Shown here in pieces: positions 9,064 through 19,356 of a stretch of 64,000 nucleotides of DNA; position 1 is the stretch's first letter, and every line of letters starts with the position of its first letter. The stretch is from assembly GCF_000733855.1 (NCBI RefSeq), contig NZ_JPOJ01000001.1, forward strand, positions 992,001 to 1,056,000. The letters are read 5' to 3'. The DNA is from Methylomicrobium agile (lineage in GTDB: Bacteria > Pseudomonadota > Gammaproteobacteria > Methylococcales > Methylomonadaceae). Under the pieces are notes generated by a model. The model was not told the DNA's origin and searched no databases. It saw nothing but the letters and a program-made list of their open reading frames with translations. A program made the translations under genes and the position numbers.

Positions 9064-10965
9064 ATGACATTATCCAAGCAACTGTTACTCCTGATTTCAG
9101 CGCTGTTTTTAGCGATATTCATCGTCAATTATGTCATCAGCATCCACAATATCAGGAGTTATCTGCAAGTAGAATCGCAAGTCCATGCGCAGGATACCGC
9201 GACCTCGCTGGGGCTCTCCTTAAGTCCCCATATTGTCAACGAATCCGACCCGATCCTGAAAACAATGATCAGCGCCATATTTGACATGGGCTATTACAAA
9301 GAGATCAAGCTGGATAATGCTGAAAACAAAACGTTAGTCAAATTAAGCAATAACCAGGTTTTCGATGAAGTGCCGCACTGGTTCGTGAATTTGCTGCCGA
9401 TGGAACCTGCAACCGCGGAAAGCGAAATCAGCGCGGGGTGGACGCCCGGCGGCACCGTTTATGTCACGGTCAACCCCGGCTACGCCTATTTGAAGCTTTA
9501 TCAGCAAGCCCAAAGTGCGTTCTGTTATTCTTTGGTTTCGTTCCTGTTATCGGTGTGCCTGTTGATTTTCGCGCTGCGCTTCACGCTGAAACCGCTCAAG
9601 CACATCAACGATCTTGCTTTGAAAATTGCCGAAGGCCAGTTCGAAACCATCACTCGCTTACCCTGGACCATCGAAGTTAACAATGTCGCAAACTCGATGA
9701 ATCTCATGTCGCGCAAATTAAGCGGCGTGATGGCGAACCTGAACGACAAACTGTCTTCTCTGGGCCGTAAACTGCAGCTCGACAGCTTGACCGGCCTTTA
9801 CAATAAAAGTACTTTCGATTCCGACCTGAAACAGCTTTATCTGGAAAATACCGACGGTTTTCTTTTTCTGGTCAAAACCGACAGCTTGGCAAGCCTTGTC
9901 AAAGAACGCGACAGCGAAGCGATCGATGCTTTTCTGCAAAGCTGCGCTTCGCAATTGAAGCAAACCTCGGAAATCTTTTCGGCCGAAGCCACCGTCTATC
10001 ATTTCTATGGCGCGGAATTCGCTGTACTGGCTCGCAATCTCCAGTGGCCTGAAGCCGAAAAACTGGCAAAATCCTTGAGCCTTGCCTTGACCGAATTAGG
10101 CCGCGTCCATCAGAAAAACGACATCGGCCATATCGGCGTAGTGGCTGTCGACCCGTTAAGCTCTCCCGAAACAATATTGCCCGCCGCCCACGAGGCCTAT
10201 GAACAGGCTGTCGTGATCGGCCCTAACAGCTATTACATCAGAACAGGCGGCGAACAGGCAAAGGATGTCACCGAATGGAAAGCGCTGGTATTCGACATCG
10301 TCGATCGGAATTTCTATAAAATTCAGTTTATCGGCCCGATAATTCATATCGCCGATAACCGGATTTTAATGGAGGAAGCTTTTATTCAGGTCTTCGACAA
10401 GCAAGGCGTCCCTCTGCCGGTCGGGGTATTCGTTTCGATTGCCGAAAAATATGAAAAGATCGTCGCCCTGGATTGCGGCATGATCGAGAAAGTCGTCGCG
10501 CATTTAAACAATACCTCTTCCGCGCAGCATATCGCCATCAATATTTCGACACGAACGATCAAAAACAGCGGTTTCAGGACATGGTTCTCAAATCTCCTGA
10601 AACAGAATACTTCTGCCGCCGCCCGATTGATCATTTGCTCTTCTGCCTATGCGGTAGCCAAGAATTTCGAAGCCTATCATGAATTCATTGATTTTTTACA
10701 TGCTTCCGGCGTACGCGTCATCCTTAAACGCTTCGACAGCCATTCGCTGTCGCTCAATCAGCTCAAAATGTTAAAGCCGGATTTCGTCCGCCTCAGCCAG
10801 GAGTTGAGCAACGGCTTACAAGGCAATGAGGAAAAAATCTCGTTCTTACAGACCGTCAAAGAAATCGGCGAATTGCTGGACATTTCCATCCTTGCCGAAA
10901 ACGTCCGCGCGGATGTCGATTTCGATATCGTCAAGAGTATCGGGCTCGACGGCGCAAGCCGCTGA
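9064..10965 (+). CDS. lapD: LapD-like c-di-GMP receptor with degenerate GGDEF and EAL domains
   Basis: A 633-residue inner-membrane protein. An N-terminal helix (about 7-27) and a second one near 155-175 bracket a periplasmic LapD/MoxY-type sensor domain, followed by a HAMP segment (LKPLKHINDLALKIAEGQFE). The GGDEF motif is replaced by FYGAEF and the EAL motif by EAF in a weakly conserved context, so it should bind but not make or cleave c-di-GMP. Known family role: when loaded with c-di-GMP, the LapD output domain sequesters the periplasmic protease LapG and so protects a surface adhesin. lapG follows 37 bases downstream, which confirms the assignment. The adhesin gene itself is not in the window. 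Confidence 0.9.
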   Translation: MTLSKQLLLLISALFLAIFIVNYVISIHNIRSYLQVESQVHAQDTATSLGLSLSPHIVNESDPILKTMISAIFDMGYYKEIKLDNAENKTLVKLSNNQVFDEVPHWFVNLLPMEPATAESEISAGWTPGGTVYVTVNPGYAYLKLYQQAQSAFCYSLVSFLLSVCLLIFALRFTLKPLKHINDLALKIAEGQFETITRLPWTIEVNNVANSMNLMSRKLSGVMANLNDKLSSLGRKLQLDSLTGLYNKSTFDSDLKQLYLENTDGFLFLVKTDSLASLVKERDSEAIDAFLQSCASQLKQTSEIFSAEATVYHFYGAEFAVLARNLQWPEAEKLAKSLSLALTELGRVHQKNDIGHIGVVAVDPLSSPETILPAAHEAYEQAVVIGPNSYYIRTGGEQAKDVTEWKALVFDIVDRNFYKIQFIGPIIHIADNRILMEEAFIQVFDKQGVPLPVGVFVSIAEKYEKIVALDCGMIEKVVAHLNNTSSAQHIAINISTRTIKNSGFRTWFSNLLKQNTSAAARLIICSSAYAVAKNFEAYHEFIDFLHASGVRVILKRFDSHSLSLNQLKMLKPDFVRLSQELSNGLQGNEEKISFLQTVKEIGELLDISILAENVRADVDFDIVKSIGLDGASR

Positions 10966-11002: not shown

Positions 11003-11581
11003 ATGCCGAGCCTTTTACGTCCTCTTCCCGTCAAGCTGGCCATTTTTTTCCTCAGCCTTGCGATAGCGTGCAATGCATTAGGCTGGATTGAACTGACCAG
11101 CGAAATACTGCTTCAGGTAAAAGCTAAGTATGGTGACCGAGCCGAACGCCGCCTGATCGAATGGCAAAACCTGCTCCGTTCCGCTAAAAATCTGCCCGAA
11201 AAAGACAAACTTGACAAAGTTAATGATTTTTTTAACCTGAATTCGTTATTCGTTGACGATATAATACATTGGAAAGTGGAAGATTATTGGGCGACTCCTT
11301 TGGAATTTCTCGCAACGGGCGCTGGCGATTGCGAGGATTTCGCGATCGCTAAATACTTTACACTGAAAGAACTGGGCGTCGATGAAAATAAAATGCGCAT
11401 CACCTATGTTAAAGCGTTACGATTGAATCAGGCGCATATGGTCTTGACTTATTTCAAAACGCCCAAGGCGGTTCCAGAAGTGCTCGATAACTTGATCCCC
11501 GACATCAAACCGGCTACGCAGCGCACCGACTTATTGCCGGTTTACAGCTTTAAGGAAGCTCTGAATAAGTGGTTTTTATAA
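11003..11581 (+). CDS. lapG: LapG-like periplasmic cysteine protease, 3' end replaced by an IS element
   Basis: A 192-residue bacterial transglutaminase-like cysteine proteinase with an N-terminal hydrophobic export signal (about 10-27). The catalytic triad is visible as Cys110 in GAGDCEDFA, His145 in NQAHMVL and Asp162 in VLDNLI. Known role: LapG cuts the N-terminus of a LapA-type adhesin and releases it when LapD is not occupied. The reading frame crosses into the left end of an IS5-family element at 11554, so the last nine residues (KEALNKWFL) are encoded by IS sequence. The true C-terminus (38 residues) lies beyond the IS at 12736-12850. The intact protein would be 221 residues. Whether the truncated enzyme still works is unknown. 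Confidence 0.92.
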   Translation: MPSLLRPLPVKLAIFFLSLAIACNALGWIELTSEILLQVKAKYGDRAERRLIEWQNLLRSAKNLPEKDKLDKVNDFFNLNSLFVDDIIHWKVEDYWATPLEFLATGAGDCEDFAIAKYFTLKELGVDENKMRITYVKALRLNQAHMVLTYFKTPKAVPEVLDNLIPDIKPATQRTDLLPVYSFKEALNKWFL

Positions 11582-12731
11582 GCGACACCGTGCGACATCC
11601 GTGGCACCTCGCCGAAAATGGGCAAATCCTTCCCGGCAGCGCCCGCTATCGGGGTGATTTCACTCAGTGTTCTCGGTTTTCCAGGGCGAAGGACAAAGGT
11701 CTCCCTAGGTCGGCTGCAGCGCCTGCCGAACGTGATAAAGATTGCCCAGGGCAAACAGCAAGTAGAGTTGTTGGGCATTCTTGAACAGCCCCCGGTAACG
11801 CACTTTGGTATAGCCGAACTGGCGCTTGACGATCCGGAACGGATGTTCGACCATGGCGCGTAACGGCGCCAGCATGTGGTTGTGAAGGGCTTGCTCTACC
11901 GGCAACTCTTCACCCTTCCCCCGCTTGAACGGAAAGGCCCAAACCGGCTCGCCTTCCAGGCGATCCGCCGCTAGATTCCGGTCCTTGCGGGTATAGGCCC
12001 GATCGCCCAGCACGACCCGTTCCTCGCCGTGCAGCAACGCCTCCGTCATGACCCCATCCGCCACCTTGGCGGTGGTCATCTCCACAGTATGCACCAACCC
12101 CGACTCGGCATCGACCCCAATGTGCGCCTTCATCCCAAAGTGGTAATTGTTCCCTTTCTTGGTCGAACTCATCTCGGCATCCCGTTTGCGCGCCCGGTTC
12201 TTGGTGGACGGCGGGGCAGCGATTAATGTCGCATCGACGATCGTGCCTTGCCGTAGCAACAGGCCTTTTTCGGCCAACAGCGCCGCCGTTTCATCAAATA
12301 GGGTTTGTGCTAACTGATGGCGTTCCAGCAGATGCCGGAACTTGAGGATCGTGGTTTCATCCGGCAGGGCGTCCTCGCCCGCATCGAGCCCGGCAAACTC
12401 GCGCAGCAGCGGCATGTCGTGCAATACTTCCTCCATCGCCGGATCGGAATAGCCGAACCACTGCTGCATCAGGTGAATGCGCAACATCGTCGCCAAGGGA
12501 AAGGGGCGGCGGCCTCGGCCCGCTGTCGGGTAGTGCGGCGCTATCCGGCTCGCCCACAAACTCCAAGGCACTACCTGCTCCATCTCTTGGAGAAATTGCT
12601 GCCGCCGAGTCTGTTTCGGTTTCTTCACGAACAGCGGGGCACTGAGTCCGAGTTGCTTCATGGCGGGCACCTATCGAAAATGGCAAGCTGCGGATATTTT
12701 ATCCCAGGCGTAGGACTTATTCAGAGTTTCC
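11554..12731 (-). mobile_element. IS5-family insertion sequence (1178 bp) inside lapG
   Basis: Terminal inverted repeats GGAAGCTCTGAATAAGT (11554-11570) and its partner at 12715-12731 match at 16 of 17 positions. The element is flanked by a 4-bp direct repeat TTAA (11550-11553 and 12732-12735), which fits the YTAR target duplication of IS5-group elements. It carries one transposase gene on the minus strand. Removing the element and one TTAA copy restores an uninterrupted lapG frame reading YSFNGTGLWIA across the junction. Both ends and the transposase look intact, so the copy may still be mobile. Confidence 0.95.
11705..12661 (-). CDS. IS5-family DDE transposase
   Basis: A 318-residue transposase (from ATG 12661; a GTG three codons upstream is possible). 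It has an N-terminal DUF772-type region (GRGRRPFPLATMLRIHLMQQ split over residues 45-65, WFGYSDPAMEEVLHD). The DDE catalytic residues are visible as Asp in TIVDATLI, Asp in VVLGDRAYTR and Glu in MVEHPFRIVKRQFGY. The HFGMKAHIGVD segment is typical of the IS5 group. No frameshift is seen. It is the only gene in the element that splits lapG and reads against lapG. Confidence 0.96.
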   Translation of the reverse strand: MKQLGLSAPLFVKKPKQTRRQQFLQEMEQVVPWSLWASRIAPHYPTAGRGRRPFPLATMLRIHLMQQWFGYSDPAMEEVLHDMPLLREFAGLDAGEDALPDETTILKFRHLLERHQLAQTLFDETAALLAEKGLLLRQGTIVDATLIAAPPSTKNRARKRDAEMSSTKKGNNYHFGMKAHIGVDAESGLVHTVEMTTAKVADGVMTEALLHGEERVVLGDRAYTRKDRNLAADRLEGEPVWAFPFKRGKGEELPVEQALHNHMLAPLRAMVEHPFRIVKRQFGYTKVRYRGLFKNAQQLYLLFALGNLYHVRQALQPT

Positions 12732-12735
12732 TTAA

Positions 12736-12850
12736 CGGTACCGGTTTATGGATTGCCAAATCCCGAAATGCCGGCAAACAGGTAGGCAATTCGGATCGGC
12801 TAAGTTTGTGGAACGATCTCAAGCTCAGAATGCTTAAAAATCCTTTTTAG
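12736..12850 (+). pseudogene. lapG: Severed C-terminal end of lapG
   Basis: An open frame ending at the stop codon 12848-12850 encodes 38 residues beginning (N)GTGLWIAKSRNAGKQVG and ending WNDLKLRMLKNPF. The YSFNxxGLW segment is typical of LapG C-termini. It has no start codon or ribosome binding site of its own and directly follows the IS target duplication. It joins in frame to residue 183 of the upstream part when the IS is removed. Confidence 0.88.
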
Positions 12851-16376: not shown

Positions 16377-17621
16377 TTAGATGAAGGTTGGGATCAGAGG
16401 ACCGTCGATTTGGACCAGTTGCTTGTTGCCGTTTTCGTCGTGGAAGAACAGCAAGCCAGCGAAACGGCTATCTGGGTCATAGATCAAGTCAGCCAGACGA
16501 TATACTTCCCAAGCTGCGTCAGACGCAGTGACTTGGATAGTTCTGGTTTGGCCTGGAGCCAGTGGGCTGTTGTCGCTAACAGTCAGACCTTCTGGAGCCA
16601 ACAAGTCATCTGGATAGCCGGTGGTGTCTTCAGTTACGTTAGCATCCAAGAAACGAACGCCAGCGGTGTTGAATTCACCCAAACGGACCGCAGAGTCACC
16701 ATTGTTGGTCACAGTCAGAGTCATGTTCATTGAACGACCTGGTACACGGTAGGTAGCGTCGTCAATTTTAACGCTAACAGTTGGTGTAGGCAGATCAAGA
16801 GGCTTCATACCACGCAACAAACCTGCTTGCAGAGGAGTGGTGATTGGGTATTCAGAGTTGGTTTGTGCCATCGTGAAAGCAACGATACCAATCGCGCCAG
16901 CACCGAAAGCCAAAGCGACTTTTCTGTCAGTTGCAGTGATCAGAGTGTCAGCTTTACCAGCTTCCACTGCGAGTTGACGTGGAATGAACATTGGCTTACG
17001 CATCCAGTAAACCATCCAAGCCACACCGAAAGCATACCAGAAAGCATGCCAGAAGTAGGTGTTGCTCAGGTTGTAAGTTTCCAGATCAACAGTTTGGCCA
17101 GTCAAAGTGGTGATTGGGTTGGTGAACTGGCTCATAGAACCTTCAACCGTTACCCATTTGCCAGGACCGATGATTGGGCCACCGCCTTCTACGTTCATCA
17201 TGGTGTGAACGTGCCAGTCACCTGGACGGCGTGCTTTCAAAAGAACTTTAAACTCATAGGTTTCGCCCAGTTCCAGAGAAACGGAACGAGGAACCAATTG
17301 GCCACCAATCCAAGATCCAGCACGGATAAATACTGGGCCTGGAATACCGATGTTCAAGAAAGCGCTTTCCGGTTTGTCCACAGTTTCTGGCCAGCCTGAG
17401 AATACCAGGAACTTACCAGAAATTGTCATTGTATCATTGACTTTAACAACTTCTTTCGACCAGTTCAGATCGTACCAGTGAATAGTACGCATACGCATGA
17501 AAGCCGCCTGAGACTTTTCACCGTGTGCGGATGCAGCTGGTGTATAGAACATCGCTGCTGCAACTGTCAGCAACAGTGCGACAAAGGACAACTTTGCTAC
17601 CTTGTCTTTAATTAACTTCAT
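16377..17621 (-). CDS. pmoB: Particulate methane monooxygenase subunit B (PmoB)
   Basis: A 414-residue subunit with an N-terminal signal peptide ending at ASA-H. Mature His33 and the HVH pair at 137 and 139 are in the exact positions of the CuB ligands known from Methylococcus capsulatus. Two periplasmic cupredoxin-like domains are separated by two membrane helices (about 185-205 and 230-255). The start at 17621 has a GAGGAGG ribosome binding site; an upstream in-frame extension to 17684 has none. It is the last gene of pmoCAB and is followed by a terminator. It forms the membrane complex that oxidises methane to methanol. Confidence 0.98.
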   Translation of the reverse strand: MKLIKDKVAKLSFVALLLTVAAAMFYTPAASAHGEKSQAAFMRMRTIHWYDLNWSKEVVKVNDTMTISGKFLVFSGWPETVDKPESAFLNIGIPGPVFIRAGSWIGGQLVPRSVSLELGETYEFKVLLKARRPGDWHVHTMMNVEGGGPIIGPGKWVTVEGSMSQFTNPITTLTGQTVDLETYNLSNTYFWHAFWYAFGVAWMVYWMRKPMFIPRQLAVEAGKADTLITATDRKVALAFGAGAIGIVAFTMAQTNSEYPITTPLQAGLLRGMKPLDLPTPTVSVKIDDATYRVPGRSMNMTLTVTNNGDSAVRLGEFNTAGVRFLDANVTEDTTGYPDDLLAPEGLTVSDNSPLAPGQTRTIQVTASDAAWEVYRLADLIYDPDSRFAGLLFFHDENGNKQLVQIDGPLIPTFI

Positions 17622-17737
17622 ATATCCTCCTCTAATAATAGAGAATCTATTTATTCTTGAGTATCTAGTTGATAAATTGTTCATTTATCCACTAGCCATT
17701 TATTTATTGTGTTACTAGCCTCAGAACCTAATAAGAA

Positions 17738-18481
17738 TTAGGTGGCTTGGGTAAATGCGGTGCTGCCGAACCATTTACCGAAGAAGTGCCACAAGAAGTA
17801 GATGATGATACTCACGAAACCAGAGAAGAATGCAGATACTGGAGCAACGTCCTTACCGAAAGTTCTCAGAGTACCTTTTTCAACCATCCGGATATATTCT
17901 GGAGTACCGGTTCTTACATAGTGGTAACCTTGCAAGTCAGCCAGGGTCATTACCATGCCGTTGTATTCAACTGGCACGTGCAATGGAGCGATGACCGGCC
18001 AGTTGCCAGGATAGAACAACAGGCCATAAGCCAAGCCGCCCAGAACCGCAGTCAACTGCATGCTGTTAGACAGCATCAGAATTACGTCCAGAACGATTGC
18101 GCCTGGAACGAATTGTGATGGGAACACGAAGTTAACTGGGAAGTAAGTCCATCCCCAGAAGTTGAAATATCTGTTAACCCATTCGCCGAACAGCAGGCCC
18201 AGAACAGCCAGCATTGCGCCGAATGGCAGACGCCAACGATACCACACAACTGCTTGAACAGCGGCTGGGAAAGTAATACCAACGATTGGCAATACGGTTA
18301 CCCACAGACGACGGTCTTTCCAATCGGTCCAGAAGTCCCAGTCACCACCCGTCAACATGAAGTGAACGTGATAGCCACCGAGAATAATGAAGAACAAAGT
18401 AAAGCAAATTAACCAGTCAAACGTGCGTGAAACTTTGACAGCTTCGGCACGTGAACGTACAGCTGATTGAGATGCGCTCAT
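17738..18481 (-). CDS. pmoA: Particulate methane monooxygenase subunit A (PmoA)
   Basis: A 247-residue membrane protein with seven predicted helices. It begins MSASQSAVRSRAEAVKVSRT and contains the GGDWDFWTDWKDRR region used by the standard diagnostic primers for methanotrophs. Other family segments include FGEWVNRYFNFWGWTYFP (102-119) and VEYNGMVMTLADLQGYHYVRTGTPEY. Sequence and length are of the type I gammaproteobacterial class, not ammonia monooxygenase. The ribosome binding site is TAGGAGGT. It lies between pmoC and pmoB with spacings of about 120 bases on each side, as usual for this operon. Confidence 0.99.
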   Translation of the reverse strand: MSASQSAVRSRAEAVKVSRTFDWLICFTLFFIILGGYHVHFMLTGGDWDFWTDWKDRRLWVTVLPIVGITFPAAVQAVVWYRWRLPFGAMLAVLGLLFGEWVNRYFNFWGWTYFPVNFVFPSQFVPGAIVLDVILMLSNSMQLTAVLGGLAYGLLFYPGNWPVIAPLHVPVEYNGMVMTLADLQGYHYVRTGTPEYIRMVEKGTLRTFGKDVAPVSAFFSGFVSIIIYFLWHFFGKWFGSTAFTQAT

Positions 18482-18603
18482 TAGCTTACCTCCTAAAGGG
18501 TTTAAAATTATTTTTATACTATCTTTCTCTATGCCGTTTCGCCTATTGGAACTTGAGCGAAACGGCCAGGAGATAGTTATTTTACAGGCTACAGCTTAAA
18601 GAA

Positions 18604-19356
18604 TTAAGCCAAGTCTTTTTTCAGCAATTTCGCAAGTGCTTGAACTTCGATGCTCAGAACACCCAATGCACCCAGAGCCGCCCATCCGAAGAATACGAAG
18701 CCATAGTGCAGAGGAGCAACGAACAACTCTTCCATAAACCAGAAAGTGTGACCCCACTCGTTCAAACCAACATTTGGCAGAATCATGAATGGGCCGACAA
18801 CAGATACCATATATTGAATGGAGAAACCATTCGCATAAGTAGGCAGTCTGGTTTTTGCATACAGCAAGGAAGCGCCACCGGTGATGATGTAGATTGGGTA
18901 GCTCAAATAGAATTCGATGATATGGCTTGGAGTGAAGTCAGTATCACGAACGATCGTTTGATGCCACGTGCCATCTTGTTCGGTGAAGTAGCTAGCGCCA
19001 AAGTAAATTGCAGTCGCGTAGCAGCACAGCCAGATCCAGTGAGTAAAGTGTCTTCTCAGTTCTTCTCTTGGAGTGATAGACATGACTTTACGGTCACGGG
19101 TTTTCCAGATGTAGCCCCACAGAATACCTGCGGTTGATACTTCCAGTACGAACTCGATGTACAGGAAATTCATCCAGTAGGTTTCGAATTCTGGTGCGAA
19201 AGAGTCAAGACCGGCGGACCAGCCATAAACACCTTCGTACCAACGAACCCAAGCATAGAATACGTTGTACAACGCGATGCCCAGGAACAGATTTCTTTTA
19301 TTTAACAGCGGTGCTTCCGCAGCATCAGCTTTCACTGATTCAGTTGTAGCTGCCAT
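18604..19356 (-). CDS. pmoC: Particulate methane monooxygenase subunit C (PmoC)
   Basis: A 250-residue membrane subunit. Residues Asp128, His132 and His145 match the CuC ligands Asp156, His160 and His173 of M. capsulatus with a constant offset of 28. Asn199, His203 and His217 match the CuD ligands Asn227, His231 and His245. The GLNEWGHTFWFMEELFVAP segment is intact. A TAGGAGGT ribosome binding site precedes the ATG. It is the first gene of the operon, with a promoter about 120-150 bases upstream. A sequence-divergent second copy elsewhere in the genome is common in this group but cannot be judged here. Confidence 0.98.
   Translation of the reverse strand: MAATTESVKADAAEAPLLNKRNLFLGIALYNVFYAWVRWYEGVYGWSAGLDSFAPEFETYWMNFLYIEFVLEVSTAGILWGYIWKTRDRKVMSITPREELRRHFTHWIWLCCYATAIYFGASYFTEQDGTWHQTIVRDTDFTPSHIIEFYLSYPIYIITGGASLLYAKTRLPTYANGFSIQYMVSVVGPFMILPNVGLNEWGHTFWFMEELFVAPLHYGFVFFGWAALGALGVLSIEVQALAKLLKKDLA

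Follow-up and report, generated by a model that had tools for sequence, protein, structure and literature searches.

In this work, the only lapG of the Methylomicrobium agile genome was found to be interrupted near its 3' end by a complete IS5-family element, within a window of 64,000 nucleotides (the whole stretch of DNA that was analysed). We hypothesize that a recently active copy of this element entered a TTAA site in the gene, and that the product is a LapG which stops in the beta-4/beta-5 hairpin. Such a protein would keep the N-lobe, the calcium-site residues, the catalytic triad and the LapD-docking strand beta-4, and would lose beta-5, the linker and the C-terminal helix, including the near-invariant N184 and W189 and the invariant W209. 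In view of the conservation of this tail, the short LapG most likely lacks stability or has poor activity. The single retention-module adhesin would still be exported, but it would stay in the outer membrane and be released hardly or not at all under c-di-GMP control, and LapD would be left without a working protease to hold. The explanation as a whole, namely an insertion that truncates LapG and a resulting loss or strong impairment of adhesin release, is considered probable. Its structural side is almost certain. That release is lost or strongly impaired is likely, a step drawn from the conservation of the tail; what we infer is that the short protein is unstable or inactive and that adhesion is changed.

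The features of the locus, in window coordinates, are the following.
9064–10965, plus strand: lapD, c-di-GMP receptor, 633 aa, uninterrupted
11003–11581, plus strand: lapG open reading frame in its present form, 192 aa (183 native residues and nine IS-encoded ones, KEALNKWFL)
11550–11553: target duplication TTAA, left copy
11554–12731: IS5-family element, complete and 1178 bp long, with a minus-strand transposase; the genome has ten near-identical copies, this one included
11554–11570: terminal inverted repeat of 17 bp, low-coordinate end
11705–12670, minus strand: IS5-family transposase, 321 aa from a GTG, or shorter from an in-frame ATG at 12661
12715–12731: terminal inverted repeat of 17 bp, high-coordinate end
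12732–12735: target duplication TTAA, right copy
12736–12850, plus strand: severed 3' end of lapG, holding the rest of the 38-residue tail (beta-5, linker and C-terminal helix) and the stop codon, frame open

The coordinates that the earlier note had given all proved correct on re-examination. The two ends of the element read GGAAGCTCTGAATAAGT and GGAAACTCTGAATAAGT and are identical at 16 of 17 positions. The transposase scored 310.5 bits against the NCBIfam IS5 model NF033581 (transpos_IS5_4, cut-off 140) and carries the Pfam domains DDE_Tnp_1 and DUF772. When the flanks were joined by script, with the element and one TTAA removed, an open LapG frame of 221 residues was obtained, as had been claimed before, and it was likewise right that 38 residues are swapped for nine IS-encoded ones while the triad is retained. 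A chance ORF of 177 aa on the plus strand (12317–12850) leads from the element into the severed tail, where its frame is the native one of lapG; it is without a Pfam match and could be misannotated as a gene. The particulate methane monooxygenase operon pmoCAB is located further along the window (16377–19356, minus strand) and, together with the kinship of the best matches, indicates a gammaproteobacterial methane oxidiser.

The release circuit in this genome and in the family

The circuit was searched for LapD, adhesin and transporter, and to judge from open frames and profile matches these three look intact. LapD carries the Pfam domains PF16448 (LapD/MoxY periplasmic), PF00990 (GGDEF) and PF00563 (EAL), and aligned over positions 1–636 of 647 to the NCBIfam model NF045673, with a score below the cut-off. 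The genome encodes one retention_LapA adhesin above the cut-off (NF033682, 98.2 bits against 50), an open frame of 3,280 aa with Ig-like and cadherin-like repeats and RTX at the C-terminus. Its N-terminal segment has a DP followed by AAAG, which fits the cleavage consensus of LapG, DP and [T/A/P]AAG (PMC13090378), and this motif makes the adhesin a candidate LapG-dependent substrate. A transporter of the LapB/LssB type is also present (TIGR03375, 1006.8 bits, cut-off 693.1). A second LapG that could compensate was not found: neither the protein search nor the Pfam search of the genome gave another C93 protease. Together with the intact adhesin, transporter and LapD, this makes the loss of release more plausible.

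The same neighbourhood without the element is found in a congener (G001), whose DNA continues across the junction base for base like the joined flanks and so provides a natural empty site for the insertion. Its groEL and ygjP are about 93% identical at the DNA level without gaps, and between groEL and lapG the lapD gene and the first lapG codons are deleted (L117:6898-9957). What remains of its lapG is a pseudogene, 86% identical, with 10 gap openings and several stops, and no retention_LapA adhesin was matched in that genome.

Among 179 genomes of the family, 34 encode a retention-module adhesin above the cut-off, and 32 of these 34 also have an intact LapG. One of the two exceptions is the present genome; the other, G174, is a MAG-like assembly that is 92% complete and split into many contigs. 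By comparison, an intact LapG occurs in 20 of the 145 genomes without such an adhesin (Fisher p = 2e-19, uncorrected for relatedness). These counts suggest that genomes of the family retain or lose LapG and retention-module adhesins as a pair, and that the present genome is a rare mismatch. Broken lapG genes were also seen in G001, G066 and possibly G104, none of which has an adhesin above the cut-off; the present genome is unlike them in that the adhesin is still there. The lapG-like sequence of G066 (C1:3274824-3275271) has several stops and is apparently another, independent decay. Elsewhere in the survey, G008 has a strong match to the LapD-type periplasmic domain (2.4e-32) with neither a C93 protease nor a retention-module adhesin and may hold an orphan LapD, and its genus-mate G034 has all three.

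These decayed genes raise the possibility that the Lap circuit had already become dispensable in the genus and that the insertion is neutral decay. This is conceivable but doubtful. The congener without lapD, adhesin and functional lapG speaks for it, as do the G066 and G104 cases, but in the present genome the frames of adhesin and LapD are fully open, the transporter match is strong, and the element is the only sign of decay. That the genus had lost the Lap system ancestrally was rejected, as the lapD, adhesin and transporter genes are open here. Neutral loss would moreover be compatible with loss of function, so that this alternative is about fitness and not about mechanism. On the gene content of this and the other genomes, the interruption appears recent and isolated, in a circuit for adhesin release that is complete in other respects.

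Copies of the element and age of the insertion

Ten full-length copies of the element are present in the genome with 99.3–100% identity, and four of them, including the lapG copy, are identical. The transposase frame is open in every full copy, and each is flanked by a 4-bp duplication (six TTAA, two CTAA and two TTTA). So many near-identical copies with open transposases suggest recent activity of the element. No comparable copy was detected in 40 relatives, among them the only congener searched (G001), and the search returned short, weak matches in five of the 40 and nothing more. Since four copies including that in lapG are identical and the element was not detected in relatives, it probably moved recently. 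The duplications at all ten copies and the unoccupied site of the congener, with the same bases across the junction, argue that the arrangement did not arise by chance. The insertion in lapG is real and young relative to the other copies. The earlier note had taken the intact pair of ends as the sign of a recent insertion; the recent date was borne out, and its basis is mainly copy identity and absence from relatives, not the intact ends.

Three other copies also seem to interrupt or adjoin genes. Long open frames lie on both sides of L009 and L010, and by sequence reading these are putatively carbon-starvation-protein-like and methyltransferase-like, respectively; at L003 a frame of 365 residues terminates at the element. 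A second, related and older set of four copies (L011–L014) is about 84% identical to the lapG copy and has the same end sequence.

The insertion could also be derived from culture or be polymorphic, in which case natural cells would mostly carry an uninterrupted lapG. We regard this as rather unlikely: the four identical copies and the absence of the element from relatives would agree with such an origin, but identical copies do not place the event in culture. Either origin is, in any case, compatible with loss of function.

What is left of LapG

The truncated LapG keeps the triad C110-H145-D162 and the adjacent calcium-site residues D109 and E111, each of which is invariant in the 96 relatives aligned. 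It passes the Pfam family PF06035 (Peptidase_C93) with 52.5 bits against a gathering score of 27, and it fails the NCBIfam LapG model NF045674 with 226.3 bits against a cut-off of 320. The latter match spans profile positions 27–181 of 221, and positions 182–221 are unmatched. Judged by these profiles, the present gene is a broken LapG and not a complete member of the family.

Because the truncated protein served as query in retrieving the relatives, the tail played no part in their selection. The 38-residue tail aligned in all 98 full-length relatives from other genomes (100 loci minus two G001 pseudogene entries) and in 25 further LapG loci of the same family, 123/123 in total. In the 96 alignable sequences, N184 and W209 are conserved in 96/96 and W189 in 94/96. 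The earlier note had named two outcomes that would undo its claim, a tail foreign to LapG C-termini and relatives whose lapG ends at the equivalent of 11581 without an element; the alignment excludes the first, and no case of the second was seen. Indeed, no natural tail-less LapG was found among the relatives examined. As all 123 keep the tail, with an invariant tryptophan far past the cut, it is probably under selection.

The position of the cut can be read from the AlphaFold2 model of an intact Methylobacter relative (L037). In this model a strand ends at F189, which corresponds to F183 of the window, and is followed by a short strand at 194–196, a strand at 204–207 and a helix at 213–224. 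According to these modelled positions, the cut falls in the hairpin after beta-4 and before beta-5. Cross-links between LapG and LapD of P. fluorescens were obtained at the LapG residues A169, Y176, V205 and Y206 (PMC4359373). These sites correspond to A144, F151, V180 and Y181 here, at a constant offset of 25; a comparison with a P. fluorescens LapG homologue bears this out, both in the kinds of residue and in the distances between them. The four positions all precede the cut and are retained in the truncated LapG.

The AlphaFold2 model of the truncated LapG has a high-confidence core (mean pLDDT 91.2), and only about the last 12 residues are of low confidence. Among solved structures it aligns best to those of LapG (4U65: Z 25.1, 165 residues, rmsd 2.0). 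The stability of the protein is outside the reach of such a model, and the alignment used may bias its end; the model indicates that the fold does not need the tail in order to be modelled, and says nothing on stability or on whether the tail is dispensable. The aligner placed W190 of KEALNKWFL on the invariant tail tryptophan, and the model has a short, low-confidence helix there. The idea that these nine residues stand in for the lost helix was set aside, as the alignment itself may have produced the effect.

It is unlikely, in our estimation, that the short LapG folds, works and cleaves the adhesin, perhaps with altered control by LapD now that the strand covering the docking surface is gone. 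For such a working form there are the retained triad, D109 and E111 and the four LapD-contact equivalents, together with the core kept by AlphaFold2. The lost part also lies at the flexible margin of the fold: beta-5 is reported to be less rigid than the LapG core and to peel away upon LapD binding (PMC4359373), so it may be dispensable for catalysis. Against it stand the retention of the tail and its tryptophan in 123/123 relatives, the lack of a natural tail-less form among those examined, and the score below the cut-off of the LapG model. That the short protein is a working variant which would bind LapD whatever the state of c-di-GMP, or cleave while LapD no longer holds it, with release rewired and not abolished, is judged more improbable still.

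An assembly artefact has a negligible probability: an element repeated ten times can mislead assemblers, but the 4-bp duplications are clean at all ten sites, the 4.53-Mb assembly has 4 contigs and an estimated completeness of 100%, and the empty site of the congener equals the joined flanks.

Comparison with known systems

An IS-interrupted gene is an ordinary kind of event, and the element does not differ in kind from other IS5-family insertion sequences, with which it shares a transposase above the model cut-off, a length of 1.2 kb, short inverted ends and 4-bp target duplications, mostly YTAA. Among titles and abstracts, the literature search gave no apparent report of an IS insertion in lapG, and for LapG in methanotrophs it gave passing mentions only. 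Beyond the insertion, the analysis adds that the system is otherwise intact, that an empty site exists in nature, and that LapG and adhesin are paired across the family. If release is lost, the strain would be a lapG mutant of natural origin in which the other parts of the circuit are present, and strong attachment or clumping would be predicted in a methane oxidiser. The case also raises the question of the role of the conserved C-terminal tail of LapG with its invariant tryptophan.

In Desulfovibrio vulgaris, also an environmental bacterium, unintended laboratory evolution is reported to have made the genetics of biofilm formation differ between nominally identical cultures (PMC5646257). The system and the outcome are different there, and for the lapG insertion an origin in culture is no more than a possibility. 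The LapG proteins of Pseudomonas fluorescens (PDB 4U65) and Legionella pneumophila (4FGO/4FGP/4FGQ), which belong to Peptidase_C93, have the same fold as the truncated LapG and share with it the triad, the calcium-site residues, the LapD-contact positions and a neighbouring lapD; unlike them, the truncated LapG is without the last 38 residues and has nine IS-encoded ones instead. In P. aeruginosa, loss of lapG leaves the adhesin CdrA on the cells and leads to hyper-aggregation in a wspF background (PMC4694147). The outcome predicted here is alike, with the adhesin kept on the cell and more aggregation. However, those lapG knockouts were engineered, whereas the present case is a natural truncation of the tail in which the catalytic core is still encoded.
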